From assembly GCA_034231615.1 (NCBI GenBank), contig CM067306.1, positions 30,884,617 through 30,948,616 on the forward strand: 64,000 bases of DNA. The letters are read 5' to 3'. The stretch is from Meghimatium bilineatum. Taxonomy: Eukaryota; Mollusca; Gastropoda; Stylommatophora; Philomycidae. The position numbers were made by a program, and so were the translations under genes. Numbering within the stretch: the first letter of the stretch is position 1; each line of letters starts with the position of its first letter. Shown here piece by piece: positions 9,184 to 55,600 of this stretch. The notes under the pieces are model-generated. The model saw nothing but the letters and a program-made list of their open reading frames with translations, was not told the origin of the DNA and made no database searches.

Positions 9184-9745
9184 AAAATTGTGGATTGTAA
9201 CATTATTTGTTTACGTTTGTACAACAAAATTGTGGATTGTAGCATTATTTGTTTAGGTTTGTACAACAAAATTGTGGATTGTAGCATTATTTGTTTAGGT
9301 TTGTACAACAAAATTGTGGATTGTAGCATTATTTGTTTAGGTTTGTACAACAAAATTGTGGTTTGTAGCATTATTTGTTTAGGTTTGTACAACAAAATTG
9401 TGGATTGTAGCATTATTTGTTTAGGTTTGTACAACAAAATTGTGGATTGTAGCATTATTTGTTTAGGTTTGTACAACAAAATTGTGGATTGTAGCATTAT
9501 TTGTTTAGGTTTGTACAACAAAATTGTGGATTGTAACATTATTTGTTTAGGTTTGTACAACAAAATTGTGGATTGTAGCATTATTTGTTTAGGTTTGTAC
9601 AACAAAATTGTGGATTGTAGCATTATTTGTTTAGGTTTGTACAACAAAATTGTGGATTGTAGCATTATTTGTTTAAGTTTGTACAACAAAATTGTGAATT
9701 GTAACATTATTTGTTTAGGTTTGTACAACAAAATTGTGGTTTGTA
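9184..9745. repeat. Minisatellite, 42 bp x 13
   Basis: Unit begins AAAATTGTGGATTGTAGCAT. Because 42 is a multiple of three, it stays open on both strands for 236 codons; the 14-residue repeats have no recognisable protein character. Lies 225 bp after the PSMF1 stop codon. Confidence 0.95.
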
Positions 9746-9969: not shown

Positions 9970-10021
9970 TCACATAAACATGTCATCGTAGTTGGGTGGT
10001 CTCTCATGATCTGGATCTGGC
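9970..10021 (-). CDS. PSMF1: PSMF1 terminal coding exon 7
   Basis: A 52-nt coding part for residues 260-276, reading QPDPDHERPPNYDDMFM then TGA. It equals the family's PNPDHLPPPGYDDMYM ending. Acceptor ATTTTTCAG. No close AATAAA was found after the stop; the nearest on this strand is in a short element at 9063-9058, which would place the 42-bp minisatellite (9184-9745) in the 3' UTR. Confidence 0.94.
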
Positions 10022-13000
10022 CTGAAAAATAGATCACAAATTATGACTATGAGAATTTTATGCTGAAAAATAGATCACAAATTATTGGAACAGTTTACTT
10101 GTTAAAAAAACTGTACTGACATTTATTCTTCTTCATCTGTGTGTGTATTAAAACTCTTAACACTTGTGATGGCTGCCATGGCAAGGTTGAATATGATTTG
10201 GAAAAGTTCGATCAGTATTAAGTAAAGATCAATCTATTCATATTGCTAGTAAAGGTAAAGGTAGGTCCATGGCAGCAACCTGCTGTCGGGGATGAAGATG
10301 AAGTTATAAAAAAGTAAATGAACTCTTCATGTACTAAGCCGCAGTAACTATTACGTAGAATGGTCAGTTCCCTTCCTTTCTGTCTTTACCTCCCCTAACA
10401 CGTGTCAGGTACTCATTTACAGCTGAGTCGACTGGTGGAGTGGTCGTGTCAAGTGAGAAATCACAACCCGAATTTTTGTATGTTCAGATGTGGTTTAAAA
10501 CCTGGCACAATGTAACCCGGTGATAGCAAGCAAGCTCACTATCCACTGGGCTACAGCGCTCCTCATATCGCTAGTGTTAAGTATACTTTTATATGGATGT
10601 GAAAGTTGGACAGTCAATGCAGACACAGAAAGAGGGATTCAGTCTTTTTAAAACAAGTGCTACAGATGTTTGTTAAGAATTAGTTATAAAGAACACAAGA
10701 CAAATAAATTCATTCAGGAGCAAATAAACAAACTTGTGGGTTATCAAGAATCACTTTTGGTAGTGGTGAAATGGTTATGAAGATCCACTTTTGGTAGTGG
10801 TGAAATGGTTATCAAGTACCACTTTTGGTAGTGGTGAAATGATTATCAAGAACCACTTTTGGTATTGGTGAAATGGTTATCAAGAACCACTTTTGGTATT
10901 GGTGAAATGGTTATCAAGAATCACTGTTGGTAGTGGTGAAATGGCATAAGCTTATTGGGTTTGGGCATATATGACTCACTTTCAAAAATTATTTTGCAAA
11001 GAACAGTCAAGGGTGGAAGGAAAAGATGCGGGAAAAAACATCTTTGATTCAAGGAATCATCTGGGAATTATTTTTCTACACTCATCCAAATGGCTGAAGA
11101 TAGCAATGTTTGGAGAGCTTTTTATGCTGATGTTTCCAGTGTGGCACCCTATGACCCTGACAGGTTATGGGTCTTATTATTATTATTATAATATTCTGAA
11201 ACTCATGAAGATTAACAGGATGTATTTTTATGTGCTAAAGAAGGTCCACCTGGACGGACAGGACATGTGAGAATGCCTGACAAATGCATTCACAAAAAGC
11301 TGATGTACGGTTCGATTCTTAAGGGAGAACTTGCAGGTGGACAGAAGAAATGCTTCATGGGGCTCTTAAAGTGTCACTAAAGAGCTTCAACATCAGATCC
11401 CAGAAATATATCTCAGCAAAACCAGCATAGGTTGCTCAAATCATTGTGAAGCATCAATTCTCATAGACACAAAGATAACATGCTGCTTGAAAAGACAGAA
11501 CAGCCAACCCACAACCTATTCTGACAATACTTGTCCCGATGTGGCAAGGGATCCTATGTCAGAATTTAACTTTTTATTCATCTCCGCACACCTCATAAAC
11601 ATAATGTTTAGGTGTGTTGATTATTGTCTTCATAAAAAAATCATCTGGAAATATTCCCCATAAAAAGGTCTGGAAATATTCTACATAACAAATGTCAGGA
11701 AATATTCCCCATACAGAAACAGCGATCTAGAGCTGAAAATTAATTTGCTTGACAACATACGGTAGCCAATAAGATAGACTAAAAAGCAATGTGACAACAA
11801 TTCAAAAGGAGGGCAGAAGACTGGAAGATGATACAATATTTTGACTAAAAGAATTTTACAATATTTTGACTAAAAGAATTTTACAATATTTTGACTAAAA
11901 GAATTTTACAATATTTTGACTAAATGAATTTTACAATATTTTGACTAAAAGAATTTTGTATGTTCTCCAGTGTGCACAGAACAGGTTTCTTGAGGAGGCA
12001 GGTGTTTAGGAAGTGTATGTAATAAGTCACCCATGGGAAGATACAGGGTTAAATCTCCAGTATCAGGAAATGACCTGATGCTCTGGAAATGCAAAGGTTG
12101 AGATAACACAAGGCAAGCATAGAGATAAAAGGAAATAAATATATCAATAATGTCCATTCAGGCGGGGAGCTAGAATAGTGACACTGTTAACAGGAAGGCA
12201 TATCTTAAAAGATGACTAAGGAGGTTTGGGGATGGAATTAGCTGACCCATCCCATAGAGGGTCAAAGTGACCCAGAGACCATGCTGAAGTTGGATGTGTC
12301 AGGCGGAAATTCATAGATATCACAGCTAAGCTGTAAACTATGACACAGCATATTCTGTTCTCTGGACTACATCCTGCTAATCTGTAAGAGTTTGAGAATG
12401 AACACAGAAGTATAAGTGTTACCAGTGATTATAAACATGGCATATCAGCAACAGGACACAAAGACAAATGACGTTTTGACTAGAATGCCTTAATCAGGAA
12501 GAAAGACAGCAGACAAACAAACCCTTTAAATGGAGATAAACATACTTTATGACGATGTAAGGAAGAGGGAAAAAAATCAAGGAAGAGAGCTACGAGAAGC
12601 ATCAGCATGTATACTCTTCACCATACGCTGAGAAAGACCAATCATTTGTGAGTTTTTCCAGAGTGTGTCGACATCAGAAACTAATCAAAACAATATTAGA
12701 AATGTTTCTTACATGTTTTATTGATCTCGATGTACCTTCAATAATTTCAAGTCACGAACAATTATATGAATAATTATATAGCAGACTATAATGAGACAAA
12801 GTTATTGGCTTTAGTTATGAGCCGATGTTCTTGCTCACTGCGTACACCCATAGGTGCTCAGTCTCCTCCAACAAATGTTGTCAGGTATGCATACTTAAAA
12901 TCACTGTTGCTAGTTGGTTAAGACACATTCCTTGTTCTATCATATAGGAGTCCATGAGATGGTGCCTAAATTTACATATTGAAAATTAATGCTGATGTGA

Positions 13001-16000
13001 AAATTATTGGCATAATACACTTACTGAGGCCGTACACCTGGTGGTCCAATTGGGTCAAACCTGGCACCTGGTGGTACTGAACCACTGAATGTGAAAGAAA
13101 AGAAAGATATTTTACTAAGATCTATCAACTAATGTGTTTGATTATCATATTATAAAAGTAGGTCATTGCTCTATTAATTTTAATGCTGTAATCATTACGC
13201 ACTCTGCAGGTAAAGTTCTTCTTTTTGCAGATGATCAAGCAATAATGTCATGTGACATATTCCTTCCAGAACGTTGTCTTCCCAACTCTCTGAACCTCTC
13301 TCTGTCTTGGGTGATGTGGCTTGCATTTTCTAGTGATGTATTCATGTTATCTTTAATGTTGTCAGTCCATCGTCTTCTTGGTCTGCACTTTCTCCTCTTC
13401 CCAGGTACTCTTCCCTCCATTATTTGTCTTTCTAAACAGTTATGTCTCTTTATATGACCAAACAGGCGTAGTTTTCTTTTTTTTATTGTGTTTAGTAACC
13501 AACACTCTGGAATATTCAATGTTTTTATAATATCTGAGTTTCTGATTTTATCCTTCCATGATATTCTAAGTATCTTTCTGTAGCATTTCAGCTTGAAGGC
13601 GTTGATCTTCTTTGCCGCTGTTTTATAATAATAGCAATAATACAAGCAATAATAGCAAAAACAAAAGAGCAGTGATGGTATGATAATCATTACACACTCA
13701 TTTAGTATAATGTTATATGCAGGTAGCACAGTGATGGTGTGATAATCATTTAGTATAATGTTATATGCAGGTAGCACAGTGATGGTGTGATAATCATTTA
13801 GTATAATGTTATATGCAGGTAGCACAGTGATGGTGTGATAATCATTTAGTATAATGTTATATGCAGGTAGCACAGTGATGATGTGATAATCATTTAGTAT
13901 AATGTTATATGCAGGTAGCACAGTGATGGTGTGATAATCATTTAGTATAATGCTACTTTGGTGTTCATGCTGTAGTGATTTACTAGGTATTATGCACGTT
14001 CAGTATATTGTCTTTACTAAATGATCTTGAAATCTCCATGGACATGGAATGAAAGTCAACTCATCCATTGAGCCATACAGAAGATACCATCCACAAGCTT
14101 GGAAGAAAGGAATAAACCATTTTTACTTTGAGAACAGGCAACAACAGCCTCAAACAACACATGTATAGGAGACTTGGAATTGGTGACTCCAATATGTGTC
14201 TGTGTGGACAATCTGTAGAAAACATAGAAGAAATATTACAGAATTTCCCACTCTACCACACCACATGAAGAAAACAATGTCTCCAAAACAGCTCAGATGG
14301 ATAAACTATCACTAAAGGTGTATTTGACCATTGGTAAATAAAATAGTGACACAGTGCATGTACATTATCTGCACTATATCTTACTAGAAATCTAGTAGGA
14401 CCATTGTCCTGCTACAAGAGAGAGCCAGCAGGAGTTTGAGAATAAATGCTGAAGAGGAATTTTGAAGAAGATGGACAAACTTTATGGCCTTGTCAAGGGG
14501 ATGATGACAACAGTAGTCCATATAAGCAACCCATATCAATGTCTGACTCCAAATGGAGAAAAATTGAAGAATTGCCTGCATCAAAAATAGAAGCAGTTAC
14601 CTTGACCAGTTGAGACATGCTCTATACCTTTCAGCCACAGAGCCAGATCTATATATTTTATTCAGATACTATTCTGCTGTAAACTTTGCTCTTGTACATA
14701 CTATGGAAGAGTCTGTATCATTCAGATTGTCTTTGTTAGCCACATCCACTATTGTCACGGATTGTAGCTTATACTCCCTCTTATAGCACAACTTCTTCAG
14801 CATTCATTCTCAAACTCCTGTCATATCTCTCTTGAAGCAGGACAATACTCCTGCTAGATTTCCAGAAGGTTGTAATCCAGAGAATGAAAATACATTGTGT
14901 TGCCATTTTATTTGTGCCAATGGCCTGACATATCCAACTTTGGCAGAGATAGCACAATAATAATACTATTATCTGGAAATATGAAAATGTGCCAGTGGCA
15001 ATATTTTATTCTGAACTAGATATGGTAGAATCCCTTGCCCATGTGTTTCCTCAACCCAAAAGGAGATCAAAGAATAGCAACACTGTTTACCTTCTATGCA
15101 TGTCATAAGAGACGATTTAGGAGGCTATGGGGTGGAGTTGCCTCTCCCATTACATATATGGTCAAAGTGACCCATAAGTCAGATGTATCATGCCAAAAGG
15201 TGCAGATATTGCAGTTGAACTATAAACCATGACACAGCGCATTTCATTCTCTGGACTATATTTTTCTAATCTGCATGAGTTTGAGAATGACACAGAAGAA
15301 GAAGTATAATCTCTCTATAGCTCATGTTAATGACAGAAAAAACAACTGAAAACAACAAAGAATTGTATTACTATACAGATGGAAACAAAGCCAGGAGGAG
15401 ACCTTGCAAACAATGGATTACAGAAATAAAAGAGTAAACAAAAACAAACATATATGAAGCATACAAAAAAGCCATCTCCAAAGAACTCTTCTACCCCTGA
15501 TGCTGCAGGGCATAAAGGGGTATACAGCGAAAAGAAGAAAAGTGATAGCTCATGTTTATAATAAATTTTCCATATTAACAACACTTTTTCAGAATCTCCA
15601 TTATATTTATTGTTTGTACTGTATATAGCAAATTTCTGTTATTACATAAATATTTCGTTGGTCCAGGCCAAATTGTTATAATGGGATTTGACTGAATCTT
15701 TTTCTTCTGTGTTCATTCTCAAACAGCTGCAGAGCATCACTTTTACCCTCTATGGAATGAGATAGCCAAAACCACCCCAATAGCGTCTTAATTGTCAATA
15801 ATGACATGCATTGTTAGGTAACAATGACATTGCTCTTTCCTCCTATTTCGCGCTAGAAACACACAGACATGAGAAAGTGCCTGTGTGTTCCCAGTGCCTG
15901 AAAGTGGAGCAAAGAATAGTGACAGTTACCTGTCATGCACATTTAAGAGGTGACTAAGTAGGTTTCAGGAGTGAAGTTAGCTGTAGCATACTATTAAGGA

Positions 16001-19000
16001 TTAAAGTGATCCACAGACCATGCTGAAATCATATGTGTCAGCCAAAAGGTGTAAATATCGCAGCTAAGTTATAAACCATGACACAACACATTGTTCTCCT
16101 GACGAAATCCTGATTGCATATGTAGGAGTTTAAGAATGAAATATCCTGATTCTGTTAATGTTTTGTGCGACCACTTTTGTGTTCTATTTCTTTAGAACCT
16201 TTTCCTCTAAGATGAGAATCTTTCTAATTTTTGAACTTGTCCCTCTAAGATGAGAATGTGTTGTGTCATAGTTTACAGCTTGGCTGTGATATCTGCACCA
16301 TTCTGATATATTCAACTTCAGCATGGCTTCTGGGCCATTTATACCCTATATGGCATGGGACATCCAACCCCACCCCATAACCCAATAATAATTCCTTGGC
16401 AAAGAAGAGCTGGATGTGCTGGACCTCGGACGTCCAGACCACAGAGTGGCAGACTGAGATGCAAATAACACAGTTTTACTATGGAACTTGCAGCACAACG
16501 TACTTCACGCTCCCAGGCGGAAATCACACGACACATTCGTTGTGGTTATATGAGAGCGAATGCAGAAGAAGAAGAAGAAAGAAGAGCTACTCTGGCCCAA
16601 GCATGGTTCACATATAACAAACATTAAGACTTACGGAGGAAATCCTGGTGGGGTCGGACCAAATGTTCCACCAGGTCTGAAACCTGGAAAATTTCTGGGA
16701 TCCATGAACATTCCACCACCTATACCTCCACTAATGGGGTCAAGATCAGCACGCCCAACTCCAAATGGGTTTACATCAGATCTGTAGATAAAAAGTAACC
16801 AGATGATAGTTTGCATGGACCGTAATTGATCACAGACACACACTGACCAATCACCAACATGGAGACAACTTGACTAATTACTGTACAGAAACATACTGAT
16901 CAATCACTAGCAGCATAGACTCAACCAGATCAATCACAGTATCCGGTACACAAAAATACTGACCAATCACCAATATTTTGACAAACTGACCAATCACAGT
17001 ACAGAAACATACTGACCTATTGCTAGCACAAACACATTGTCCAATCACTGACACGGACGCATACTGCTTCATCACAAACTTGTAGAGACTATTATTTTGT
17101 CATGTGACATATTCTCTCCAGAACGTTCTCTTCCCAATGAACTCTCTGAACCCCCTTCTGTCTTGAGTGATGCGGCTTGCATTTTCCAACAATGTATTCC
17201 TATTATCTTTAATGTTGAAGGCTATCGTCTTCTTGGTCTGCCCTTTCTCCTCCTCCCAGGTACTCTGCCCTCCATTATTTGTCTTAATAGACAGTTGTGT
17301 TTCTTTATATGGGTCCATGTTTCACAGCCTAAGTATCTTTCTATAGCATTTCATCTCAAAGGTGTTGATCTTCTTTGCCACTGACTTACTTAGGGCCCAT
17401 GTTTCACAGCCATATGTTGCAACCAGAAAAATAAAAGTTTGTAGCATTAACAATTTTGTTTCTATTTTGTTGTATTTCCATATGTTAGACTATTATACTG
17501 ACCAATAATTAGAGTAGACTTGACTCCACTGATCAATAAATAGCTTTAAACTTTATCTTACTGAGCAATCACAGCCCAAAATTTTTTACATAGCTCTTCA
17601 ATCAATCAAGTGACATGACAAGTGGCGTTGGCAATGTTTCTCCACAACTCTCTAGCTCTTGTGTTATTAATAATTTCAGGTTCAGTTGGTGACATCTTTC
17701 TGTGCCACAGTGACAACCTATACGGAAATTTCTCTTTTTGACTTCATCTCTCTTCTCCCCTTGATCTTTCCGGTGGTTACTAAATGTAAAAGTTTTACTT
17801 TTTTTAATCACATGCCCAAAAATCTTGAATGTCTGCATCTATTTTTTTTATAATTTGTCTTTTTTTGTCTTTTTACTTCAGCAATACTGAGGGCTTCTAC
17901 ATTAGTTTTCTTGGCTGTCCATGGAATTTTGATCATTCTTCTCAAAAACTACATCTCAGTTGCAATGCACAGTTGACACTGTTCTTACTCTGACCAATCC
18001 AAGCCCAAAATTTGTTACACTGTTCTTACTCTGACCAATCCCAGCCCAAAATTTGTTACACTGTTCTTACTCTGACCAATCCAAGCCCAAAATTTGTTAC
18101 ACTGTTCTTACTCTGACCAATCCCAGCCCAAAATTTGTTACACTTCTTACTCTGACCAATCCAAGCCCAAAATTTGTTACACTGTTCTTACTCTGACCAA
18201 TCCAAGCCCAAAATTTGTTACACTGTTCTTACTCTGACCAATCCAAGCCCAAAATTTGTTACACTGTTCTTACTCTGACCAATCCCAACCCACAATTTGT
18301 TATATTGTTCTCACTCTTACCAATCTCAGCCCAAACTTTATTCTATTTATCAGTTTCAAATTCACAATTTCTCACCCTGACATGGTCTTGTCCTAAGACC
18401 AATAAAACTTACATCACAATTCAGCTAAAATTCAAAATTAGAAAATGTATAGTTTGTAAATTTAATTATTTCTTCTTATAGCCCATACTGTGTGGTGTTG
18501 GTTATCTTATCGTTTCCTAGCCTTCTGTGTTGTGTGCTGTTATAATTAATTTATAAATTAGAACAATAAAAAATATAGTAAAACACTATAATTACACTGA
18601 AAACAGAAAGTAAAGAGAAGAACCACAAAAATACTTTAAAAATATTTGCCTAAACAATATTACTGTACCTGTTCAACATCTACACTGAAAACAATGCGAA
18701 ATGTAAAAGACGATATGACATATACTGACTTCCAGTCTCTTACCATCGGCAGTCAGCAGATCCCAGAAATCAGATATGCTGACAACACAGTTCTCTTAAC
18801 AACAAACGGAGATGGTCTAAAGCAAATGTTACTATCAATAAAAGAACACAGTGCAATCCAAAACCTGTACTTAAATATGAAGAAAACAAAAATTATGACA
18901 GAAGAAAAAGTGAAAGTACAATGAAAGATAATAATTTACAATTTCGAACTAACATAACTGATTTCCAGTATTTGGGCATAAATATAAATAGTTCAGGAGA

Positions 19001-22000
19001 TTGCGCTATCAAAATCAAGATAAGAATTGCGATGGCGAGATTGAAACTTGCGCAAATGAAAAATCTTTCGCAAGGTATCAGTAGCAAAGCCAAACTATGT
19101 ATGATCAGAACATGCATATTTCCAGTGGCAATATATGGTTGTGAGGCATGGACATTAAATAAAACAATAACAAAGAGAATCGCTGCTTTCGAAATGAGAT
19201 GCTACCGAAGAATTTTACGTATACAATGGACAGATACAAAATACAAATCAAGAAGTGTCAAGATCAATAATCATCCAATGCCCAAACTATCCAAAGACAT
19301 TTGCAGCTATAATATGACTTATTAGCCATTTACGAACTCATAATAAAGGACATAACTCTAACTGAATTTCAAAAGTGGATGCAACAAATGGCCATTATCA
19401 CTTGTGTTGGACGAACAACAACAATGTACTCTGGTATATTGTATGTATTCTGTTTTAAATTTCTGGTTTACCAGGCTTTTCTACTCATTTTTTTCTTTAT
19501 TTTTTTCTAGACTCTCAAATGTCTGAGGTCAGAGGTGTTTGAAGGAGTTTTGTGTGCTGATGTCTCCAGTATGGCACCTCTACGACATTGGCTGGTTATG
19601 GGTCTTATTATTATTACCAGGCTTGTGTTCTCAGCGCCCTACTCTTTGACAGTGAAACATGGACAACCTATGTGCACCAGGAGAGATGACTAAACAGCTT
19701 TCACGTGCAGTGCATGTGTAGAATTTTTGCAGGTAGGTGGCAGGATAAAGTCATTAATACTGATGTATTGGAAAGAGCGGGATATATCACTGTTTTCTCT
19801 ATGCGCAGACTCATAGATGGGACACAGAAGAAGGATGGGACATGGCAGAATACTAAGGGGTCTACTTTATAGAGAATTAAAGTCAGAAAATATCTCATGG
19901 TTGACCTCTGCTTCGATACAAAGACTTATGCTAGATGCCATGGATTGTGTTGTATGGAGGGGAAAGATCAGGAATGGCATAAAAACAAATGAGCAATTGA
20001 TAGTCGTTATTTCAAGGGTTGCATGTATAAAAATACACACAACAACATATGATGATACTAGTGGGCCTGCGATTCCTTAAACATATTGTGGAAGACTCCT
20101 TGTGACTCAGACTGGTCTTGTGAGTCACATCCATCATCACCTTGGATTGTAGATGATATTTCTTATAGCACAATAATAATACTATCTAATTATTTCTAAA
20201 ATATTGCCTATATTACCTCAGAGGAGGAGGAATACAACCACCTCCAAAAGGACGTCTTGGATCTTCCATCAATGGTGACCTCCCATGCTGCTCTACACGT
20301 TGGCTGTTAGTGGACGAAGATGATGATTTGACTGAACTCTGACCCTTTGATCCAGTGACAATCTTTGCTATGATTTCCCTTGAAAGTGCAGCATTCAGTT
20401 CCTCCAAGCTGTTAAACGCACTATCAAAAATACCAGATAGATTAACAGTAATAAAATAGACATATTTCTATTTCCCTCTTTGTTTTGCATTCACTCCTTA
20501 ATAACCAAACATGAATATTCATGCGATTTCCTCCGGGAACGTGAAGTATGTTGTACTAGCATAATGCGTCATGTAGACCCAGAACATGCGATTTCCTCTG
20601 GGAGCGTGAAGTACATTGTGCTACCATTATGCGCCATGTAGATCCAGAACATGCAATTTTCTCCGGGAATGTGAAGTACGTTGTGCTACCATTATGCGCC
20701 ATGTAGACCCAGAACATGCGATTTACTCCGGGAGGGTGAAGTACATTGTGCTACCATTATGCACCATGTAGGCCCAGAACATCTGATTTCAGCATTTCTT
20801 GACAATGTCAGGCGGTCTACCCTAGCTTGTGACAGCCTTCCTATCTGTCACCCAGTGGCGAATATGTATCGACTCTATGCCGAGATGATTTATATCTCAC
20901 ATGTGGTGTTCCACAGCTAGTGTGTCATGCAGTTAGACGTATTGTGCCTTTGCCCATCAGTTACTGAACCTTTTCTCATTCACAAGCCTGGTTCCAGTTT
21001 AGGAAGAATTCGGCAGAAGAGTATATTAGATGAAAGCTGAAATTAATATTACGAGTATATTTGGCAGAAATATATAGTATATTAATGAAAGTTGCTGATA
21101 AAATATAATAATAGCAAAATTCAAAAAATTATTCAAAAAAAAATATTTATATTGCTTGACATATGCTCTAGCATCTAATGTTGGTTGTTTTGTATAGTAT
21201 ATCCACTTGTGCAACTATTTGGTGAGTTTCACATGTTTATATGTACAAATAAATGTTCTGTGATGATTTCATCAGGTTTTGTTGACATGCATTGAAGAAT
21301 TTGCAAAGACAGACAGACAGACACGCAGGCAGGCAGGCAGACAGACAGACAGACAGATAGACAGATAGATAGAACTGTAAGACCTTTAGAATTCTTGTGA
21401 TTGGGCGAGATACTACAGTATTTTTACAATCTCTTTTGGTGAAGACTTCCTTAGCAACATTCCCATCATCTTTTAGGAAGTCGAGCCAAAATATGGAAAC
21501 TATTTATTCGTCTTTTAAAAAAAGACAAGCCAAAGACTAAGAGTTAATGACAATCTACAATACACATAATCTTACCTGGCCATATTTGAGCGATCGTCAT
21601 TCACATAATCTCGGGACCTGAATGTTGTACTCACTGACTTCTCATCAAAACAGCGCTGTGGAGATAAATATATCTTTAATAATGGTACACAATATCAGAT
21701 TACATAGAGAGAGAACAGATCGAATGGTTTGGCCACATTATGAGATGCATCACGAAAAGTTGCCCGTACAAGCATATAACCAAATGAGATCAGGGTACAA
21801 GTCAGAGGAAGACCACGGAAAAGATGGATAGAAAACATCAGGGACATCCTGTACAGACACGGTCATAGCACAACCTAGGCCACACATCTGGCTTTAGAAC
21901 ATGAGATGGTGCTCCAATTACCCCTACGCTTAACGGCAAGAGTGGATCACAAACCACCTGGGGAAAGACAATAGACAAAATATCAATCAATAATTGATTA

Positions 22001-25000
22001 CCTTTTGATCCTTCTTCTGTGTTAACATTAAAACAGGGATAAGCAAAAATTACATGGCAAAGTCATTTTTACTGACTTGCCAGGTTGATTTTAAATTACT
22101 GTATACACTGGCCTCCAAGCTAAGAAAATATAAAATCACAAGCTATCTTAGTCAAATAGTGAAATAGGATGCTAAAACATGATAAGACGTTTAATGATTA
22201 TAACAAATGTTTTATTCATCTATAAACATGTAACCAATCAAGATCATAGGAGTACCACATTGATTGCATCAACACACATAGTTCTCCAGTGATTTATATC
22301 TTCAATGATATGGACGAGTGAGAAAATCTCTTGTCCTGTCCAGTCCTCAATGTTGTCCGTCCATGCTTTAATTTAATGTTTGATATTACTAGTTGAAAAC
22401 AGTGTGAACAAAATAAACCTGGAGACAATGCACATCATGCAGACCTTTCATGTAGCTTTGATTTCAAATGCAACAAGTCTTGTGATATTAAAAAGCATCT
22501 TAAGTAGCTAGTGACAAAATTATTATTTTCTTTAGAATTTCAAAGGAATAAAAAAAATTTCCAGGATATTCTGCTACTAAATATAAACTTATCCCTGACA
22601 GACAGATCTGAATTTGACCAGCCAACCAAATAATGTTGTCCACTATTGATATAAACACTTATTGCAAGATGCAGCATTAGCATTCAGTCCATGGCCAGAG
22701 CCTTATGACATACTGAAGTCATGCAGTCATATGTGACTACAGTGTGGTCAACCATTATATGGCTGTAAGCTGTGGGTCTCACCAATGGTTCAATAGACAA
22801 ACCAATCATGCAACAGAAAACCTTAGTAGATGACATGCCTTTATATTGAGGTTATCTTCTTATAGAAGCTTCATGGCACGTCATCTATACGATCCTGTAG
22901 TTGTAACCTTCGATAACAGTTACCATGTTGTTCCGACAGGCAGACGTTGTGCTTGAACTAGTTATGGGCACGGCGTGGGTGGGTGGAACAGCAAAGAAAC
23001 CTGTTGCAAGGGCCAGAGTTGTGCCCTGATGTCGACGTCTGTTTTGGCAGCATTAGACTCGAAACACCATCGAGTAGAATGGCTGCTGGAACAGAGGGCG
23101 GAGCACTTATGGGAATGCCCCACGTACTGTGAGGCCAGTTTCTAATCAAGAATGGCTGTAAGCTTTCACCGTAGGCAGGCCACGTAATTGTAAATAATTT
23201 CTCTCCTGCTTTTCGGAATTCTTTTTTGAAAATTTGTGTTATTGCTGGTGGCTGTTTTGAAAATGTGATAACTTGAGATTTGTAAATATTTGCACATGTA
23301 AATAACGAATGGAATACTAAATATATTGGTGTAAGTTTTGTTTGTGTGTGTGTAGTACCAGATATGTGAAAAAGTGGTAAAGATGTTTTTTTTCACAAAA
23401 AACAAATTATAATGAACAAAACTAAAACAAATTATTAAAAAAATTACTTACCTTTTTTGGAATTTTATTAAGTGGGAACACTGTAAATTACACCTAATTC
23501 TACAGTATTTATGTTGTTTCATTGTGAAATTAGCATACCGGTAATATCACTGGGGAAAATGAATAAACCATGTAGATTTGCTGTAAATTGTTCTCTGCAG
23601 CTAGACCAAGTCGTATTTTGAATCGTTCCAAAACAGTCGATATTTGGCCTCTACAAAACGAAACCAGCGTGTTCTACAGTATATTCTATTCTTGGAAAAC
23701 TAACTATCTCCCAAGAATTCATCATCCGAATCTCAATTCATACTGATTTTACTGACAATATGATAAAACAAAAGTCTATAAAACCTGATTCACTTTCATG
23801 GAGCTACACCGGTATGCAGATATGGACAGATTAGTGTCCCATCCATTGCTAGAGATTTCATCAGCTATGTCTTGTTAGATGTTGGATCAACATCTATAAT
23901 ATAATCTCTGGAACACTCTATAAATAGCGCATTTAAATCATTGAATTCCGTGTGACATCCAATCAAAACGATTGGTGTCAAGACATAATTTTCCGCAGCA
24001 CGACTCAAAACAGACGCTATAGTTGTATACAAATGTTATTGTGAAGCATGATCGTCAATCTGATCAACATCGCTATAATGAGCCAACATCAATGGTTTTC
24101 GTCAACGGAGAAATGGCCTTTCACTGCAACATTTGCATTTATTCATTCATAAAATATTGCTTATGGACTGTATGATGTCACATTCACTTTTGTTCTCATA
24201 CGGTGAGCCAGGTTGACAAGCACATTGGAAATGTGCGGCATTTCAGGGGCAACCCAATAAATTTCGTCCCAATGGGACGACGGGATCCGAACAAATCTAG
24301 TACAGTATAAACACCACACAATGCAACAGTAGTGTCCCATCCATGGCTAGAATTTTTATAAGGTATTCTTCTTCTTCAGCGTTCGCTCTCATATAACCAC
24401 AACAAATATTTTGTGTGATTTCCGCCGGAGAGCGCGAAGTACGTTGTGCTGCAAGTTCCACAGTAGAACTGTGATTATTTGCACCCAGGTTGGCCACTTG
24501 TGGTCAGGATGTCCGAGGTCCAGCACATCCATTTTCGTAATTCCTTTATTTCGGGTTTGGTCCCTAGTCCGTGACAGCCTCTATCTGTCACCGGGCATGC
24601 TGGTGTGTAGTGCCTCTTCACCAAGACGCCTGACGAGCGCGTCTATTTGGTACGAGGTGTTCCACCGTCTATGAACCCATCTCGTGCAATTGGACATACT
24701 GCCTGTGTCCATCGGGTACTGAACCATTTCTCATCCATGAGCCTGGTTCCATATGAGGAAGAACTTGCCAGCAGAGTTGGACCCTGGCTCATTCGTCCTC
24801 CTACACGAGGAGTCGTTCACAGACGCTGTGAATCCCTCGCCTAAGTTAGAGTCTCACACTACGCGTTTGAGAGCAAGGCATTCTCGAGCTAAGTGATCTT
24901 GTCGCAATAGCGCCTGAGCCCATCAGGTACTGAACCCTTTCTCTCTGCAAGTGTATTTCCGGTATAGGAAATCTTGACAGTAGAGTTGGGCCAGGACTGC

Positions 25001-28000
25001 CATTGTTGTCCCTTTCTTGCCTAAGCCCATTGGGTACGGTACCCTTTCTCTTATTTAAGCATATTTCCGTTATAAGGTATGTCTTGTTAGGTTGTAGATC
25101 AACATACAGTATAAACACTTACCACAAGATGCAACATTAGTGTCCCATCCATGGCTAGAGCTTTCATAAGGTATGTCCTGTTAGATGTTGGATCAACATA
25201 ACGAAGTGCATAGATACTGCCCTGGCTGTTCCAGTCTGTTGGCAGAGCTTCACTTCCAGCATGATTTTCATTCTGTACAAGGAAAATCCAATATATTCCA
25301 GCAAATGAAAATTTTTCAACAAATATTTCAATATATTCCAGCAAATGAAAATTTTTTTAAAAATATTTCAATATATTCCAGCAAATGAAAATTTTTCAAA
25401 AAATATTTCAATGTATTCCAGCAAATGAAAATTTTTCAACAAATATTTAAATATATTCCAGCAAATGAAAATTTTTCAAAAAATATTTCAATATATTCCA
25501 GCAAATGAAAATTTTTCAAAAAATATTTCAATATATTCCAGCAAATGAAAATTTTTTTTTAAATATTTCAATATATTCCAGCAAATGAACATGTTCACAC
25601 AAAAAAAAACTACACAAGTGCAGCAAGTTTTTTATTTTGACATTAAGACAAAATTGTGAAGCACACAACACTGTCAATCACTTTTATGGATTCCTGGACC
25701 TGAATCAATGCAATGTAACAAGACCACATTTTGTATCGATCCCTGGACCTGAGTCAATATAATGTCAACATTTTCTTGATTATAATACAGTATATTTTCT
25801 TCTTCTATTTTTGTTCTATAACTCCTGCAGATTAGCAAGATGAAGTCTGGAGAAAGGATTGCATTGCATCTTTGTTTACAGCTTTGCTGTGATATCTGCA
25901 CATTTCAAACTGGCACGTCTGACTTCATTATGGTTTATGGATCACTTTGACACTATATGAGATGGGATAGCCAATTTCACCCCATAATCTCCTCAATCAC
26001 CTATTATGACATGCATGGAAGGTAAACAGTGATGTTATACTATGCTCTCCTTTCAGGAATCTGCAAAACATGGGCGAGTATATTATAAATGATGAAACCA
26101 GTTCTGTGACAGAGTGGTACAGAGAGTGTCTTGGATGGTCAAGATATCAAGTTCCATTTTTGCAGGAGGTAGTTGCACATCCAGACCACTCAGAAAGCAA
26201 TGGCAACCTATAATATTTGTGCAAATATTGACCAAGAAAATCACTATAGCCAAAACTGGTTTATAACGACATTCTATATAATATATTCTTCCAACTTCAT
26301 AAACAATGGCCCACGTCGAAGACGGATGTGTCAGGCCACTGGTGCAATTAAAATGGCGGCACAGCACATTTCCATTCTCTAGACTACATCCTGTGGAAAT
26401 CTAGCAGGACCACTAACCTGCAACAAGAGAGGGGCAGTGGGAGTTTGAGAATGTGCATTGAAAAAGAAGAAGATAAACGATAACTGGAAGCGAAGAATGG
26501 TTGATTATAGAGTTTAAAACTTGACCTTGCAAGAAATCATCATCATTAAGTGCCTTCTCTGAAACGAAGGTTAGCTGCAATGTAGTCTCCAATATCCCGT
26601 CTCTTGCTTTGGTGGTGCACTCTGCTAGACTGTAACCTGTCCATCTCGTGATGTTTCTCTCCCACTTGCTTTGCAAGAAATACTCTACAGCAATCACAAA
26701 CCCAAGAATTCATAAAGTAATCTCTCAGATTTTTTAAATGAAATCTAAACTCAATCAGAACACGGTTCGCTGTTCTTGTGGATTGCAATGCTGTTATAAA
26801 AGGTGAAGACACGCCCCATGAAACATATTGTAGAACAGGTTTCCTGGCTACCTCACCTCCAAATTTTAAAGCTGACTTTTTCTCTCTGATATATTGAAAA
26901 GTCTTAGAGGATTGACTTCATTGTACACAAATTACCCTGTATGTACTCTATAGCATAGTATTCTGTAGCTTCAAGCGACAATCACCAGGAGTCTTTGAAA
27001 AAAATCCACTTTGCAAAAAAGACATAGCAAGTGGGATTAGAACAGTTACCTTTTCAGCACAGAGTGGGCAGTTTAACTACTATGCTACGGAGTTCCCATA
27101 CTCTAAAAATTAACACTACGCTACTGCTTTGGTAGGGGGGGGGGTTATGGATGTATGTTTAGTCTCAGAAGCGCAGTATTCCAGTGCAGTAGTATCCCAG
27201 GATCAACACGTCCTGTCATGAGCATAGCATATATGTCTAGACCAACCAGTTCATCATTCTTCTGTCAGATCTGTTGACCCATCTTCAGTGATGGCATACC
27301 TAGAATTTTCCACCACCTAGAAGTCTGCCATAAAAGAACAAAGGTGCAATATTCCCTGGCAGGTATCTCTTTGTCATCCATTGGGACCGTCTGGCAGAAG
27401 ACATAAGAAATCTAGACACGATATGCAATAAAAATGACGTTGTGACAGGTTTACAACACCCCGTCCCCTCCCAATTCTCGCCACACCTGGAAAAAAGACA
27501 GTGACCCTATTCTTTATACTTTATACCCTTACTGAACTAAAAGTCCAGGTGCCGGTTCTCACAGGGAGGTCTGAAAGGCAAAAATGAATATGCCTATAGG
27601 TTAGCATACGGATACCTAAAAAAAAACACACACACACAAATTATATTTCCATTTAACTAATTTATGATTAACGAAGATCCAAGCATCTCTATTATAATTA
27701 TAGTAAATTATATATAGAGTCTATAATAGTTATGGGCTTAGCACTTAACAAAATCCCCATGATGCTAATATACCACCTGATACTCAGGTTCAGATAGTAC
27801 TCTTAAGTACTAACTCTATTACTAAATTATACATCATATTATAATCATACTATGAGTGATAGTTCATAGTACTACTAGTACTACTGATGTATACTAACTA
27901 TACTAACTTGTGCAGTGGGCCAAGTTTCGCCGTTTCCACAACATTTCAGTCCACTTGAAATCAAATTCCAATGTACAGCAGTGATGAATGCATCATCTGA

Positions 28001-28057
28001 CGATACTATCTGTGGAGCAACACTTTTGTAAAGGAGCTCAAATCCAGGAAGAGGCAT
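9970..28057 (-). CDS. PSMF1: Proteasome inhibitor PI31 (PSMF1), complete, seven coding exons
   Basis: Coding exons on the minus strand: 28057-27908, 25272-25123, 21655-21576, 20408-20217, 16781-16635, 13084-13025 and 10021-9970. They total 831 nt, 276 codons plus TGA. Every intron is GT-AG and all phases join without a break (0, 0, 2, 2, 2, 2). PI31 binds the 20S proteasome and affects its activity and assembly; in other animals its N-terminal FP domain pairs with the F-box protein FBXO7. Residues 1 to about 150 fit the FP domain, with HW at 29-30 and an LRYVDP stretch near residue 72. Residues from about 170 are rich in Gly, Pro and Arg, as in the family, with DPxG-type and PPGARFDPIGPPG motifs and the conserved end PPNYDDMFM. 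Human PI31 has 271 residues. The start is the first ATG of exon 1 and matches the family N-terminus. Introns are large (1.2-3.6 kb) and filled with repeats. The assignment rests on recalled family sequence, not a search. Confidence 0.95.
10425..10570 (-). repeat. tRNA-derived SINE head
   Basis: Minus strand GCGCTGTAGCCCAGTGGATA then CACCGGGTTACATTGTGCC: A- and B-box-like elements at tRNA spacing. Arms do not pair well. Confidence 0.5.
10565..11190 (+). mobile_element. LINE 3' region containing an expanded minisatellite
   Basis: 10580-10740 reads LLYGCESWTVNADTERGIQ then EQINKLVG; 10945-11180 resumes HKLIGFGHI and runs to a (ATT)n tail. Between them a 34-bp unit coding in its first frame for GYQEPLLVVVKW is repeated six times. 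Confidence 0.75.
10738..10945. repeat. Minisatellite, 34 bp x 6, inside a LINE
   Basis: Unit contains GGTTATCAAGAACCACTTTT; it equals LINE codons for GYQEPLLVVVKW plus the first base or so of the next. Confidence 0.92.
11832..11958. repeat. Tandem repeat, 25 bp x 5
   Basis: Unit TTTTACAATATTTTGACTAA plus AAGAA; nearly identical copies. Confidence 0.93.
12155..12415 (+). mobile_element. Type A element
   Basis: GACTAAGGAGGTTTGGGGATG ... GATGTGTCAGGCGGAAATTC ... AGTTTGAGAATGAACACAGAAG. In PSMF1 intron 6. Confidence 0.75.
13025..13084 (-). CDS. PSMF1: PSMF1 coding exon 6
   Basis: A 60-nt exon for residues 240-260, reading GSVPPGARFDPIGPPGVRP. This matches the conserved VPPGARFDPFGPIG block of vertebrate PI31. 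Acceptor CACATTCAG, donor GTAAGT, phase 2 at the 3' end. Confidence 0.94.
13235..13665 (-). mobile_element. LINE 3' end
   Basis: Minus strand reads KKINAFKLKCYRKILRISWKD, IKKRKLRLFGHIKRHN, GRVPGKRRKCRPRRRWTDNI and ends GRNMSHDIIA. Open over this stretch. Continues at its 5' side into the 48-bp minisatellite. PSMF1 exon 6 lies just to its left. Confidence 0.82.
13680..13955. repeat. Minisatellite, 48 bp x 5-6
   Basis: Unit contains CACAGTGATGGTGTGATAAT then CATTTAGTATAATG. On the minus strand it reads straight into the LINE end at 13235-13665, giving a 228-codon open frame with no biological meaning. Confidence 0.93.
14090..14300 (+). mobile_element. RNase H LINE C-terminal fragment
   Basis: SLKQHMYRRLGIGDSNMCLCGQ then ENIEEILQNFPLYHTT, the CxCGQ...H/C knuckle of the RNase H LINE. 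Confidence 0.7.
14375..14455 (+). mobile_element. Type B element, 3' part
   Basis: AATCTAGTAGGACCATTGTCCTGC, then GAGTTTGAGAATAAATGCTGAAGAGGAA. Truncated at the 5' side. In PSMF1 intron 5. Confidence 0.7.
14785..14950 (-). mobile_element. Type B element
   Basis: CTTCTTCAGCATTCATTCTC ... CCATTTTATTTGTGCCAATGG. The palindrome is degraded (AGGACAATACTCCT). Confidence 0.75.
15035..15305 (+). mobile_element. Type A element
   Basis: AGGAGATCAAAGAATAGCAAC ... GGGGTGGAGTTGCC ... CATGAGTTTGAGAATG-ACACAGAAGAAGAAG. Confidence 0.75.
15695..16390. mobile_element. Three partial type A elements
   Basis: Minus-sense 15695-15870, plus-sense 15875-16145 and minus-sense 16245-16390, each recognised by TGGTTTACAGC/GTTATAAACC, ATATGGGATGGGACAGCC and the TTTACCTTCC-type stretches. 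Together they form an inverted cluster in PSMF1 intron 5. Confidence 0.65.
16395..16578 (+). mobile_element. Type C element, partial
   Basis: Matches the tail half of the copy at 24367-25069 in the opposite orientation: CTGGATGTGCTGGACCTCGG, then GTTGTGGTTATATGAGAGCG and a (GAA)n tail. Lies in PSMF1 intron 5, just downstream of exon 5. Confidence 0.75.
16635..16781 (-). CDS. PSMF1: PSMF1 coding exon 5
   Basis: A 147-nt exon for residues 191-240. It carries NPFGVGRADLDPISGG and GGGMFMDPRNFPGF, a close match to the family's PFxVGxxDLDPFG...GGMxxDP block. Acceptor TATCTACAG, donor GTAAGT. The most recognisable exon of the gene. Confidence 0.95.
16850..17075. repeat. Degenerate tandem repeat around GACCAATCAC
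   Basis: About eight loosely spaced copies of ACTGACCAATCAC, with ACAGAAACA between. In PSMF1 intron 4. Confidence 0.75.
17095..17430 (-). mobile_element. LINE 3' end, decayed
   Basis: Same family as 13235-13665: plus-strand text starts GTCATGTGACATATTCTCTCC, with GGGCCCATGTTTCACAGCC at the 5' side. Confidence 0.75.
17595..17945 (-). mobile_element. LINE 3' end with TTGA-type tail
   Basis: AATCAATCAAGTGACATG at the left end, then GCTCTTGTGTT, TTGATCTTTCC.GTGGTTA and TTAGTTTTCTTGGCTGTCCA; parallels 36040-36460 and 59095-59620. Confidence 0.65.
17970..18340. repeat. Minisatellite, 41 bp x 9
   Basis: Unit contains CTGTTCTTACTCTGACCAAT then CCAAGCCCAAAATTTG. It shares the TGACCAATC core with the array at 16850-17075. 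Confidence 0.93.
18690..19440 (+). mobile_element. LINE RT C-terminal region
   Basis: IPEIRYADNTVLLTTNGDG (YADN in place of YADD), NLYLNMKKTKIMTEE, then in the next frame FQYLGININSSGD, LARMIRTC-like CMIRTCIFPVAIYGCEAWTL and RCYRRILRIQWTD. One frameshift at about 18925. In PSMF1 intron 4. Confidence 0.82.
19500..20090 (+). mobile_element. Two LINE 3' fragments in series
   Basis: 19505-19615 is an RTE-type 3' end with a (ATT)n tail (DVSSMAPLRHWLVMGL). 19620-20080 is another LINE C-terminus (ETWTTY, CMCRIFAGRWQDKVIN, DVLERAG), with stops. Confidence 0.65.
20217..20408 (-). CDS. PSMF1: PSMF1 coding exon 4
   Basis: A 192-nt exon for residues 127-191. It begins SLEELNAALSREIIAKIVTG, equivalent to the SEELRSRIVSGI helix that ends the FP domain. 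It then enters a Ser-rich linker and DPRRPFGGGCIPPPLR, the start of the Pro/Gly-rich C-terminal half. Acceptor TTTAACAG, donor GTAATA. Confidence 0.93.
20520..21025 (-). mobile_element. Type C element with an internally multiplied 65-bp block
   Basis: The GCGATTTCCTCCGGGAACGTG segment that is single in other type C copies is repeated four times with a 65-bp period (20523-20790). The remainder to 21025 aligns with 24540-24790 (GTGACAGCCT, CTATCTGTCACC, TACTGAACC). In PSMF1 intron 3. Confidence 0.7.
21304..21374. repeat. Microsatellite (GACA/GATA)n
   Basis: CAGA, CAGG and TAGA tetramers over about 70 bp. Confidence 0.9.
21576..21655 (-). CDS. PSMF1: PSMF1 coding exon 3
   Basis: An 80-nt exon coding for residues 101-126 plus two bases of 127. 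It contains DEKSVSTTFRSRDYVNDD, corresponding to the QQVADLTLNLDDYID region of human PI31. Acceptor CACAG, donor GTAAGA. The reading phase fits both neighbouring exons. Similarity here is weaker than in the other exons, so this exon rests mainly on phase and position. Confidence 0.88.
21685..21990 (+). mobile_element. LINE 3' end with TCAA-type tail
   Basis: REQIEWFGHIMRC then PYKHITK and ends in AAATATCAATCAATAATTG. Directly follows PSMF1 exon 3 in intron 2 sequence. Confidence 0.65.
22645..22715 (-). pseudogene. Third partial copy of PSMF1 exon 2
   Basis: Minus strand reads KALAMD, a stop, then MLMLHLA, followed by the intronic AAGTGTTTATATC that also follows the true exon. The most decayed copy, with the exon-intron junction still visible, so it came from genomic DNA rather than a spliced transcript. 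Confidence 0.7.
22915..23155 (+). mobile_element. Fragment of an RNase H LINE C-terminus
   Basis: HHRVEWLLEQRAEHLWECPT resembles LKERSEHLWTCPECNDDD of the element ends at 38.1 and 45.7 kb. An inverted copy lies at 28434-28555. Confidence 0.6.
23815..23905 (-). pseudogene. Second partial copy of PSMF1 exon 2
   Basis: Minus strand reads VDPTSNKT, a stop codon, then LMKSLAMDGTL. High base identity to exon 2 in the same orientation, with a broken frame. Lies in intron 2. Confidence 0.75.
24300..25110 (-). pseudogene. Duplicated 3' half of PSMF1 exon 2, split by a short-element insertion
   Basis: Adjacent to real exon 2. Minus-strand pieces at 25110-25070 and 24366-24300 join across a 703-bp insertion (24367-25069) flanked by TTATAAGGTAT on both sides. 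The pieces read YVDLQPNKTYLI and KILAMDGTLLLH, against YVDPTSNRTYLM and KALAMDGTLMLH in the gene. The frame is open and a GT follows GTG at the donor position. The 5' half of the exon and its acceptor are missing, so it is unlikely to be spliced in today. Confidence 0.82.
24367..25069 (-). mobile_element. Short non-autonomous element, type C, inserted in an exon-2 relic
   Basis: 703 bp flanked by TTATAAGGTAT (24356-24366 and 25070-25080). The left end is the reversed (GAA)n tail plus GCGTTCGCTCTCATATAACC. Parts repeat at 20520-21020 and 16395-16578. Near the right end, a GAGCCCAT.GGGTACTGAACC motif occurs three times, so this copy may be internally duplicated. Confidence 0.8.
25123..25272 (-). 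CDS. PSMF1: PSMF1 coding exon 2
   Basis: Codes for residues 51-100 in 50 whole codons (phase 0 at both ends). The acceptor is TTGTACAG and the donor is a perfect GTAAGT. Key residues are LPTDWN, IYALRYVDPTS and LMKALAMDGTLMLHLV, matching human LPAGWN, LYVLRYEY and LLVKAITV-type positions. A 40-bp minisatellite begins only about 15 bp upstream of the acceptor, and partial copies of this exon lie downstream in intron 2. Confidence 0.94.
25287..25592. repeat. Minisatellite, 40 bp x 8
   Basis: Unit contains TATTCCAGCAAATGAAAATT. It sits immediately upstream of the PSMF1 exon 2 acceptor; the minus strand carries repeated TTTCATTTGCTGGAATA, offering branch-point-like A residues but few pyrimidine tracts. 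Confidence 0.94.
25795..26075 (-). mobile_element. Type A element
   Basis: CTTCTTCTATTTTTGTTCTATAAC, TCCTGCAGATTAGCAAGATG, GTTTACAGCTTTGCTGTGATATC, GAGATGGGATAGCC. In PSMF1 intron 1. Confidence 0.75.
26300..26475 (+). mobile_element. Type B element
   Basis: CGTCGAAGACGGATGTGTCAGG start, AATTAAAATGGCGGCACAGC, AATCTAGCAGGACCACTAACC, GAGTTTGAGAATGTGCATTG and AAAAAGAAGAAG tail. Confidence 0.78.
26480..26820 (-). mobile_element. LINE 3' end
   Basis: WERNITRWTGYSLAECTTKA then a degraded GDYIAANLRFREGT end, as in WESNIT-WTGCSLAECTTKT at 44.7 kb. Tail CATCATCATTAAGTGCC. In PSMF1 intron 1. Confidence 0.75.
27035..27100 (-). repeat. tRNA-derived SINE head
   Basis: Minus strand CGTAGCATAGTAGTTAAACT then GGTAACTGTTCTAATCCCAC. 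The B-box GTTCTAATCCC is good; no complete tRNA fold. Confidence 0.5.
27150..27565. repeat. Uninterrupted copy of the split repeat
   Basis: In PSMF1 intron 1. Matches the joined halves at 56740-56864 and 58414-58700. No coding potential recognised; class unknown. Confidence 0.65.
27908..28057 (-). CDS. PSMF1: PSMF1 coding exon 1
   Basis: Codes for residues 1-50, beginning MPLPGFELLYKSVAPQ and ending GNGETWPTAQ. This is the start of the FP domain, including the family's HWxLI-type segment (HWNLISSGLKC). The donor is GTTAGT, phase 0. The bases before the ATG (CGGC) are a fair start context. No 5' UTR boundary or promoter could be identified upstream. Confidence 0.93.
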
Positions 28058-29000: not shown

Positions 29001-29890
29001 CTATATCTGTAATTCTGTCTCCTTAATAAAACTCACTGTCTTTTGTAGTTCATACAGTGTCCCATAGAGTTTTGATTCCAGTGTTGTTTCCTCTGGCCAA
29101 TATGTCTGCCTCAGCGTTTCATGCTCAGAACACTCTTGAAGTATATGTTTGGCACTCTGTGCTGCCTGTCCACATGTACACATGGCTGTGTTGCCAATCT
29201 TGAACTTTGTATACATGTGACTACGGAGTCGGTTGTGTCCTGTTCTGAGACGTAGAATTATAACTTGTTCTGGTCTGTTCATAATATGATAGTCATCTTG
29301 TGTTGGTGTTTGTGGCTTTCTTATTGACTTGATCATCTGTTTTTTCTGATGGTAGGTGATTGGTATATCTGGTTGGTCTTCGGCAGCACCTTCCTTAGCC
29401 AGTTGGTCTGCTTTTTCATTTCCAGGTATTCCACAGTGAGAGGGTATCCACTGCATGGTTATCCTGTACTGGTAAGACAATTCACTAAGTAGTTTTTTCA
29501 AGTCTGTTAGTTTTTCAGACTGGAGAGCTTGAAGCACTGACCTTGCATCTGTCAGGAATACCACAGGCTGTAGTTCAGAGTTGGAGTTCAGCAGTTTTTT
29601 AGCTGCCACAATAATTGCCTGGATTTCTGCATCATAATTATTGCAGAATTTTCCTGTCGGTGTTCTGATTGTATCTCTAGGCTTGTGTGGATATTCTATA
29701 TATACACCTGCACCTCCATTCCTCACGGCATTCTGTGCTGACCCATCTGTGTATACTCATATATCTGACCCATATATCTTGTGGATATTCCTCATCCAGG
29801 AAACTGAGGGTGACTGTCCTTCGCTGCACACTGTTCTGTTCGTCCTCGCTTAGTATTCCTTTCACATGGGTCTGAATGTATATTGGCATT
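29001..29890 (-). pseudogene. RNase H and Cys-rich C-terminus of the LINE, frameshifted
   Basis: Downstream of the TGA the original frame continues to about 29755 (TLSFLDEEYPQDIWVR), then the coding frame shifts into 29726-29001. Expected RNase H residues are seen: DAEIQAI, FLTDARSVLQAL and WIPSHCGIPGNEKADQLAKE. These are followed by the CxC-G-x-H-x-x-x-C knuckle (MCTCGQ...KHILQEC). The first catalytic Asp (TDGS) sits at the shift point in the other frame. RNase H removes the RNA template strand. Confidence 0.85.
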
Positions 29891-30015
29891 CCATGCCTTT
29901 CACTCCACGGGGTTTGTTCTGATACAGGCCTTAAAGGGCTGTCAACTTCAGGTAGGTCTGTAAGTTGTCTGCGGAGTCGTTTAGCTTGATGGATAAAGCT
30001 GCTTCTTTTCAGTCG

Positions 30016-32859: not shown

Positions 32860-33438
32860 CCTGATTATCTGTGCGCCTTTTGGCTGGTTGCCTCCGTCTT
32901 CAGCACTCTGCTTACTTGGGCCGGACTATGGTCCTGCTCGAGTGGGAGTGCCCGACCAGTCTTAGTTTCCAGCCTCTGATGGCTGAACTAAGCCCCATCA
33001 CCACTTCAAGGTTCTGGCCTCGATGGGGTTCTCAGTACTAAATCTCACGTTCTTTTTTTTCTGTGGTGGGAAAGGCAGGGGGGGGGGTTTAATACTATAA
33101 ACCTCCATTCTTATCCACGGGTTCAATCTCAGGCACACTAGGAGACAACTATTTATTATTATTCAGCATCTATTGGTAGAATAAAACACCAAATTTTGAG
33201 GCAGTCGTGAAATCTGATACCTGTAAGCATACCCAATGTTGATGCATTTACAGACACATTGGTCATCTGGTCCGCAAGAAAAATTTCCGTTAAAAAAAGC
33301 CACCTGCTATATGGAGAAATCTAGACTGGCGTTCATAGTGTCTTTACTTGGAGACTCATTCCAGTTATGGAGATACTCAAACAGACATTCGAACACAAGT
33401 GTTATAGACGAATTTAGTGTATGCCACATAGAGAACAT

Positions 33439-52630: not shown

Positions 52631-55600
52631 GTACGCAATGGTTATTTTCTCACGTTATGCACATATTTTGGTTTAGCATGCTCTGATTACCTAAGAAGTA
52701 AACAATACAGTACTTAGTGGACCAGGGACAAATCCAGCAAATAAGGAAAAACAACAAATAGGTTGTCACTTGGTCCACTACCAGTTAATCTGCAAGAGTT
52801 TCAGAATGAATGCAGAAAAAGAAGAAGAATAGAGAAAATTATATTTGAATGAAATATAAAATGCAATTTTTAACCTAAACAAAGTAACATTTGGATGAGA
52901 AGTAAAATAAAATAAAAACAAAAGAATTTTCGGTTCTTCTTCTTCTCATTCGCAGTTTAATATATCTACACAGCAAGTCTGGTTTTCTTGATAAATGCTG
53001 TATTTGAAAGCTCCTCAAGGCTCCCATACAACTTTCTGTGGATTTCTATCTCTGTTGGCCAGTGCTCCTCTTTTGACTGGTTTAGTGTACTACAGTCTTT
53101 CAGGATATTTTCCGTGGTCTCTACTGCCCACCCACACGGACACAATGTTGGAACTTAGTTTATTTGGTCTGCTGTGCCCTGTCCAGATGCCAGAGATGAT
53201 AACTTGCTCAGCTATCTCGAGATAGTGATATTTGTCTTTCAGTGATAGGTGAAAGTTATACAAAGTTGCAAGAAATGATGAATATTGTTCCAAAAGAAAG
53301 TCAAAACAAGGCTAAATCTGAATAGCAGAAAAACTGAAGTAATGGTAATATCATAGAATAAATGTTCTCCGGAATACAACATATTCAAATATTTAGATAA
53401 ATTAATATCATCAAATGGAGGATGTATTAAAGAAGTCACATGCACAAATGCCCAGACAAAGGCAATATATCAGAAGGTGAAAAACTATCCTATGTAATGT
53501 ATCTTTGTTAATTTAGGTGAGAAAGATAATTTTTATAATTTATATAGAACCAATTCTGATGTATGAAAGTGCATCTTGAACACTCAACAGAATAGTGAAA
53601 AATTATAGTGAGATAGCAGAGATGTGGTTTTATAGAAATATGTTAAGAACACAATGGACAGATAAAAAAGCGTAAAGAAGATATCTTCAGAGAAGTTAAT
53701 TCAAAAAGAGAGCTGCTTTCCCACATCAGAGAGGCAGTCCATATTTTTTGAACACTTCATGAGAAGAGGAAAGATAGAACATATTGTAACAACAGGCAAT
53801 GACCAAGAGAGAAGACACTTGACAACCTACCGGTAGCATTGTGGCATGGGAGAACATCAGTATCTGAAATTATTGACAGCATACAAAATAGAACCCTGTC
53901 GAAAGACATGATAATCGAAGCACATGACATTGGCCATAAAAAGTTTTTCAATATTGTTTGAAAAAGTTCTCAAGATAGTGATAGTTGTATTTTCATTCTT
54001 GAAGGAAAGGTAAAATAAAATATAAAATAATATTTGAGTTAACAAAATGTTAACATAGACCTATGATTTTTTTCCTCTCAATGCAGGCAAGGAGAAAGCT
54101 AATCGAGGCTGGACACCATTACATCTGGCTGCATACTTTGGTCATACAGCATCTGTTCGGGTTCTACTGGAGGTATCAGTTCAGTTTTGTATATTCTTTT
54201 GGTTTTGAATCTGTGTTTTGATTAGTTAGATGCAGTTCTGCCATGGAAGTGTTATAGACCTGAATTATTGTATTTCTATATTTCTGGTTCCGTTTTTTAT
54301 ACTATTAAATTCATCCTAGGTGTATAAGCTCAGTGTCTCAATCATTTATTGGTTGAGTTCTTCTGGTCTTTCCAGAGAGAAGGCACTTTCTTCACTCTCC
54401 ATTGATCACACTTCCATATCAATCATTCTCTGAACATGAACATTATCTCTTTCAGTCTCCTCTTCATCACTTTGTGGTGCAACCTTAACTGTCATAATCA
54501 ACTCAAGTCTGTAGGTGTCTGTTGCTTTGTCGATATCGATACAGACATCAGCAAAAAAGTCTATCATGCATGACCATGGTTAGCTTTGATGTTGGTTACC
54601 AGCATGTAAGTACGAGAACCAGTTCTCTACAACATCTTGTGTACTATACTGTTTTTTTAAAATTGTTCGTCCATCTCAAGTGATGAGAATTATTTGTTAC
54701 ATCCACTTTGGAAATTCAGTTAAGGTTATGTCCTTGATTATGAGTTCGTAAATGACTAATAAGCTCTATTCTTGCCACTAGTGTCCTTGGACAGTTTGGG
54801 CATGGGATGACCACTGTAGATGGTTTTTGGTCTACCCGTGACTTTCTAGGGAAGAACCAGTGGACAAATCACGTGACAACATACTAACTTTTAAATTTCA
54901 TATGCTATTGCACTATCTCAGAAACTTAAAAAGTCATAACTTAAAATACTGATCTAGCTATTTGTGCTCAATGAACTGGCCATCCACCTCCCACTCAGTG
55001 TGCAGCGCGCATGTCGAGTGGTCAGGGGTGGTCATTGTGCAATGTGTCAAATATTGGATGTGTCGTTATATACGACTTTATCAGAATTTCATTCCGTTTA
55101 ATTATATTTGCTATTTTTTCCGTAGAAACCTGTCCACTGATTCTTGTATTGTACCCTTTCTAGCTACTCTCTGCTGTTGAGCTGCTGCATTTCTCCTCTT
55201 TTCACCAGATACACCATGTAGCTCTATTTTGTGCTTGTTCTTCCCATGTAGCTTGGTCTATTTCAAAGGCTTTCAGAGAGGTCTTTAATTAACGAGTCCT
55301 TGTGGTGCTTCTTTTGGCCACCTTGAGATCATTTTATTCCTTTCTGCAACTCAGCATAGAGAAGTATTTTTGGCAGATGATGATCTGGCATGGGTACCAG
55401 ATAACATGCATCAGGAATCTTGTGTCTGCATCAGAATAATGTCAATGCTAGGGATACCAAATTTGTCAAAGACAGTGGTATCCAAATTCTTGTCTTACCT
55501 AGTGATGTTCATAACTTTTCTGAGACAAGTTGTGTGAATGTGTTTGAGTTTGCTCACATGTTGTAAATAGCAATATGATTACAGACAACTACCATTCAGA

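Follow-up and report, generated by a model that had tools for sequence, protein, structure and literature searches.

A probable single-copy PI31 orthologue in seven short exons of the Meghimatium bilineatum genome

Human PI31, the product of PSMF1 (PDB entries 8fz6, 4ouh and 2vt8), combines an N-terminal FP domain, which forms dimers, with a Pro/Gly-rich tail. This tail lies inside the chamber of the 20S proteasome, with D197 at the catalytic threonine of beta5 and D244 at that of beta2; replacing either aspartate by alanine (D197A or D244A) is reported to make inhibition of the corresponding site weaker, and residues D197, L198, G206, G207, M208, R242, D244 and P245 are placed at the beta5 and beta2 sites (PMC10319324). 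The same paper presents yeast Fub1 as a PI31 orthologue whose tail likewise sits in the active sites (PMC10319324). Drosophila PI31, the partner of Nutcracker, is a presumed orthologue (PMC4453063). FBXO7 has an FP domain and a proline-rich part in common with PI31 (PMC4453063).

The window considered here is the whole 64,000-nucleotide stretch of DNA that was analysed, taken from the slug Meghimatium bilineatum. On its minus strand it almost certainly carries an intact, apparently single-copy PSMF1 orthologue, predicted to encode a PI31 protein with an N-terminal FP domain and a Pro/Gly-rich tail. The locus thus adds one PI31 orthologue together with a probable exon structure in which one acceptor has been corrected.

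The gene model comprises seven minus-strand exons. Exon 1 (27908..28057, 150 nt) opens with the start codon at 28057-28055 and is followed by the donor GTTAGT, which is weak at -0.1 on a crude score; exon 2 (25123..25272, 150 nt) has the donor GTAAGT. Exon 3 (21576..21655, 80 nt) was chosen by hand from a list of candidate exons, and exon 4 in its preferred form (20217..20420) measures 204 nt. By homology, exon 5 (16635..16781, 147 nt) supplies the segment of the beta5 site and exon 6 (13025..13084, 60 nt), which bears the PPGARFDP block, that of the beta2 site. Exon 7 (9970..10021, 52 nt including the stop codon) ends the protein in PPNYDDMFM. Both motifs had been reported in the initial annotation and were located on the minus strand at 13051-13074 and 9973-9999, respectively. 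That annotation had also described seven in-phase exons of 52-192 nt encoding 276 residues, and joining the exons with exon 4 starting at 20408 (192 nt) gave this length and these exon sizes: 831 nt, 276 residues and a stop codon. With exon 4 taken from 20420, the joined sequence becomes 843 nt and 280 residues, and the introns measure, in order, 2635, 3467, 1155, 3435, 3550 and 3003 nt. All six begin with GT and end with AG, and the exons are colinear, in phase and free of internal stops.

The identity of the product was established by several searches. In Pfam, the 280-residue protein scored 78.4 bits against PI31_Prot_N, over positions 2-152 of the 154 in the profile and above the cut-off of 21, and 33.1 bits against PI31_Prot_C (cut-off 28.2; positions 4-74 of 74). 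The initial annotation had proposed a database search of the joined product, and searches against protein structures and families returned PI31: residues 2-271 of human PI31 in 8fz6 align to residues 4-280 of the query with an E value of 1.4e-36. The next structure matches are the FP-domain entries 4ouh and 2vt8, and two further chains, with E values of 0.63 and 0.65, are probably fortuitous. The earlier claim of a complete PI31 gene is therefore borne out by the Pfam domains and the 8fz6 match, except that the acceptor of exon 4 probably lies 12 nt further upstream, for a protein of 280 residues. Pfam detected neither an F-box nor a ubiquitin-like family in the product at E values up to 1, only the two PI31 domains, and we take this product, which represents the annotated exons only, not to be FBXO7 for that reason.

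Nucleotide-level comparisons point to the same gene. A tblastn search of the 64-kb window with human PI31 as query recovered a colinear series of minus-strand pieces that runs from 28051 to 9973. Five have E values between 7.8e-6 and 0.008, and the E value of a sixth, within exon 4, is 15; exon 3 was not recovered by this search. When human PI31 was aligned with splicing to the minus strand of 9000-30500, the score was 296.8; the opposite strand of this interval gave 46.6, the plus strand of the entire window 75.9, and the rest of the minus strand 41.9 and 51.2. Chance controls peaked at 67.5 (100 dinucleotide shuffles) and 70.3 (100 shuffled proteins). Because the best spliced path omits exon 3, this shuffle control supports the PI31 gene and not the choice of model for exons 3 and 4.

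That choice was made on other scores. A six-exon gene that dispenses with exon 3 and begins exon 4 at 20467 is the path preferred by spliced alignment with human PI31, but skipping exon 3 lowers PI31_Prot_N to 59.6 bits with a match that stops at position 89 of the 154-position profile, reduces the 8fz6 score to 124.3 bits from 129.4, and relies on an acceptor at 20467 whose score of -3.3 falls short of the median for the window, -1.3. We rejected this path on its Pfam, PDB and acceptor scores and regard it as very improbable. Including exon 3 raises PI31_Prot_N from those 59.6 bits to 78.4, and a hand-made product from which exon 3 was simply deleted reached 58.7 bits. Other starts for exon 3, at 21673 and 21637, were discarded because PI31_Prot_N dropped to 68.9 and 66.0 bits, and a start at 21640 was translated as well.

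For exon 4, the start at 20420 is probably the right one, to judge by PI31_Prot_N (78.4 bits versus 72.9 from 20408), by 8fz6 (129.4 bits for 280 residues versus 127.4 for 276) and by the pairwise score with human PI31 (359 versus 354), each of which favours the longer form by a small margin. The same gene with exon 4 starting at 20408, so that the 276-residue protein is made alone or alongside the longer one, is unlikely but has points on its side: its acceptor, TAACAG at 20409, keeps the frame with a score of 0.6, as compared with 0.9 for the upstream acceptor on the same crude scale, and the fraction of columns identical to human PI31 is slightly higher (96/260 versus 95/264). As both in-frame acceptors, 12 nt apart, are usable by score, their alternative use can be envisaged; that both serve, yielding two PI31 isoforms that differ by four residues in the last part of the FP domain, is improbable. 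If it were true, the isoforms could differ in dimerisation or in the choice of partner.

A different objection would be that the locus holds a decayed PI31 copy that is no longer expressed. Such a pseudogene might be suspected from the degraded exon-2 copies and repeats that lie within the gene and because no canonical poly-A signal closely follows the coding sequence, neither AATAAA nor ATTAAA occurring within about 900 nt downstream of the stop codon. This reading is nevertheless hardly credible, for the frame is open from start to stop, splice signals are in place at six of six introns, and no other PI31 match was found elsewhere in the 1.61-Gb genome among the best ten candidates. The genome, in 32 contigs, was searched with the protein at E values up to 10; the search scores the best ten candidates, so a very diverged copy could escape it, and among these ten it gave eight matches, namely the seven PI31 exons and one degraded exon-2 copy, all at the PI31 locus. 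A genome search with the Pfam profile PF08577 returned no match at the locus, and likewise none for its 14 controls. Sixfold TTAGG repeats were counted 400 times in forward and 220 times in reverse orientation, versus 159 and 37 for the backwards control; like the kind of retrotransposons, such arrays would by themselves have suggested an insect without proving it. Judged from its sequence, the PI31 gene is a real, complete and ordinary orthologue, and its expression, exact splicing and function are predicted on that footing.

The sole local oddity of the locus is that exon 2 recurs three times, incompletely and in degraded form, on the minus strand within intron 2: 22650..22704 (80% identity over 55 nt), 23830..23893 (92% over 64 nt) and 24301..24366 (86% over 70 columns). 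A 101-nt query spanning the end of exon 2 drew four matches from the genome, all at the PI31 locus: exon 2 itself, two of the three intronic copies and, immediately beyond exon 2, a 35-nt repeat. The copies were considered as alternative exons and dismissed, two containing an in-frame stop and the third being followed by GTGTTT, a poor donor. Minisatellite arrays occur within and around the gene. A 40-nt tandem array of 7.5 copies (25289-25589) stops 17 nt short of exon 2 on its upstream side, and a 42-nt minisatellite of 13.4 copies (9184-9745) lies about 225 nt past the PI31 stop; the long open frames seen on both strands of the latter arise from its period.

The gene had been presented as hidden in small exons, in a span where retrotransposon frames are longer. 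Frames longer than the PI31 exons do exist in the span, at 13235-13999 (254 aa) and 18783-19325 (180 aa), but Pfam recognized no family in 18783-19325 or in 13235-13660, the scanned part of the former, and their designation as retrotransposon frames is our own reading, made without a Pfam match. Introns of 1 to 3.5 kb between short exons are the norm in large animal genomes, and scans for long open frames are well known to miss multi-exon genes in repeat-rich genomes; the concealment of this PI31 gene amounts to nothing beyond that usual architecture.

Compared with human PI31, the protein shows 36% identity over the aligned columns and a similar composition of the tail, where proline and glycine account for 36% of the residues after position 150, versus 37% after position 151 in the human protein. 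The PPGARFDP block, a YDDM sequence near the end and the residues opposite the catalytic threonines of beta5 and beta2 are common to both. Human D197 and D244 are conserved as D207 and D254 of the 280-residue model, and 15 of the 23 human positions inspected keep their residue (G194, D197, L198, D199, P200, G206, G207, M208, D211, P212, R242, F243, D244, P245 and M269); the other eight differ (V6, G195, E196, I209, V210, F246, Y270 and L271). The residues that face the two catalytic threonines have been retained at 36% overall identity. The protein ends in M-F-M where human PI31 ends in M-Y-L, so that a strict C-terminal HbYX motif is absent, Phe replacing the penultimate Tyr. We do not count HbYX as family-defining for PI31, since two sources describe it as dispensable for inhibition by the human protein (PMC10319324; PMC12148024). 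Among peptides that activate the human 20S proteasome, a penultimate Phe was reported to be tolerated or favoured, and in monovalent peptides the third-last Tyr seemed required (PMC8907193); the third-last residue is Met in this protein, as in human PI31.

By analogy with the human protein, this PI31 would be expected to inhibit in the same mode. Its FP domain (about residues 1-150 of 280) corresponds to the one that forms dimers in human PI31, and its Pro/Gly-rich tail would reach into the 20S proteasome and span the active sites of beta5, beta2 and beta1, blocking proteolysis and itself resisting cleavage.

The window carries other features as well. About 0.9 kb upstream of the PI31 start codon, the minus strand holds a non-LTR retrotransposon (29001-32925); Pfam recognized its endonuclease, reverse transcriptase and RNase H, which extend over more than a single open frame. 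A second non-LTR element, also on the minus strand (45697-47958), has an open frame of 753 residues with reverse transcriptase and RNase H. Among ten other frames of the window scanned with Pfam, three were matched and seven were not; the frame at 60200-60508 gave no Pfam match, and an Rfam scan of the 64-kb window returned no family. Ankyrin-repeat exons of a plus-strand gene were detected at 54107-54172, 56241-56306 and 60257-60337 by tblastn with a consensus (E 2e-4, 0.001 and 0.05), and may resemble the ankyrin part of OSBPL1A.
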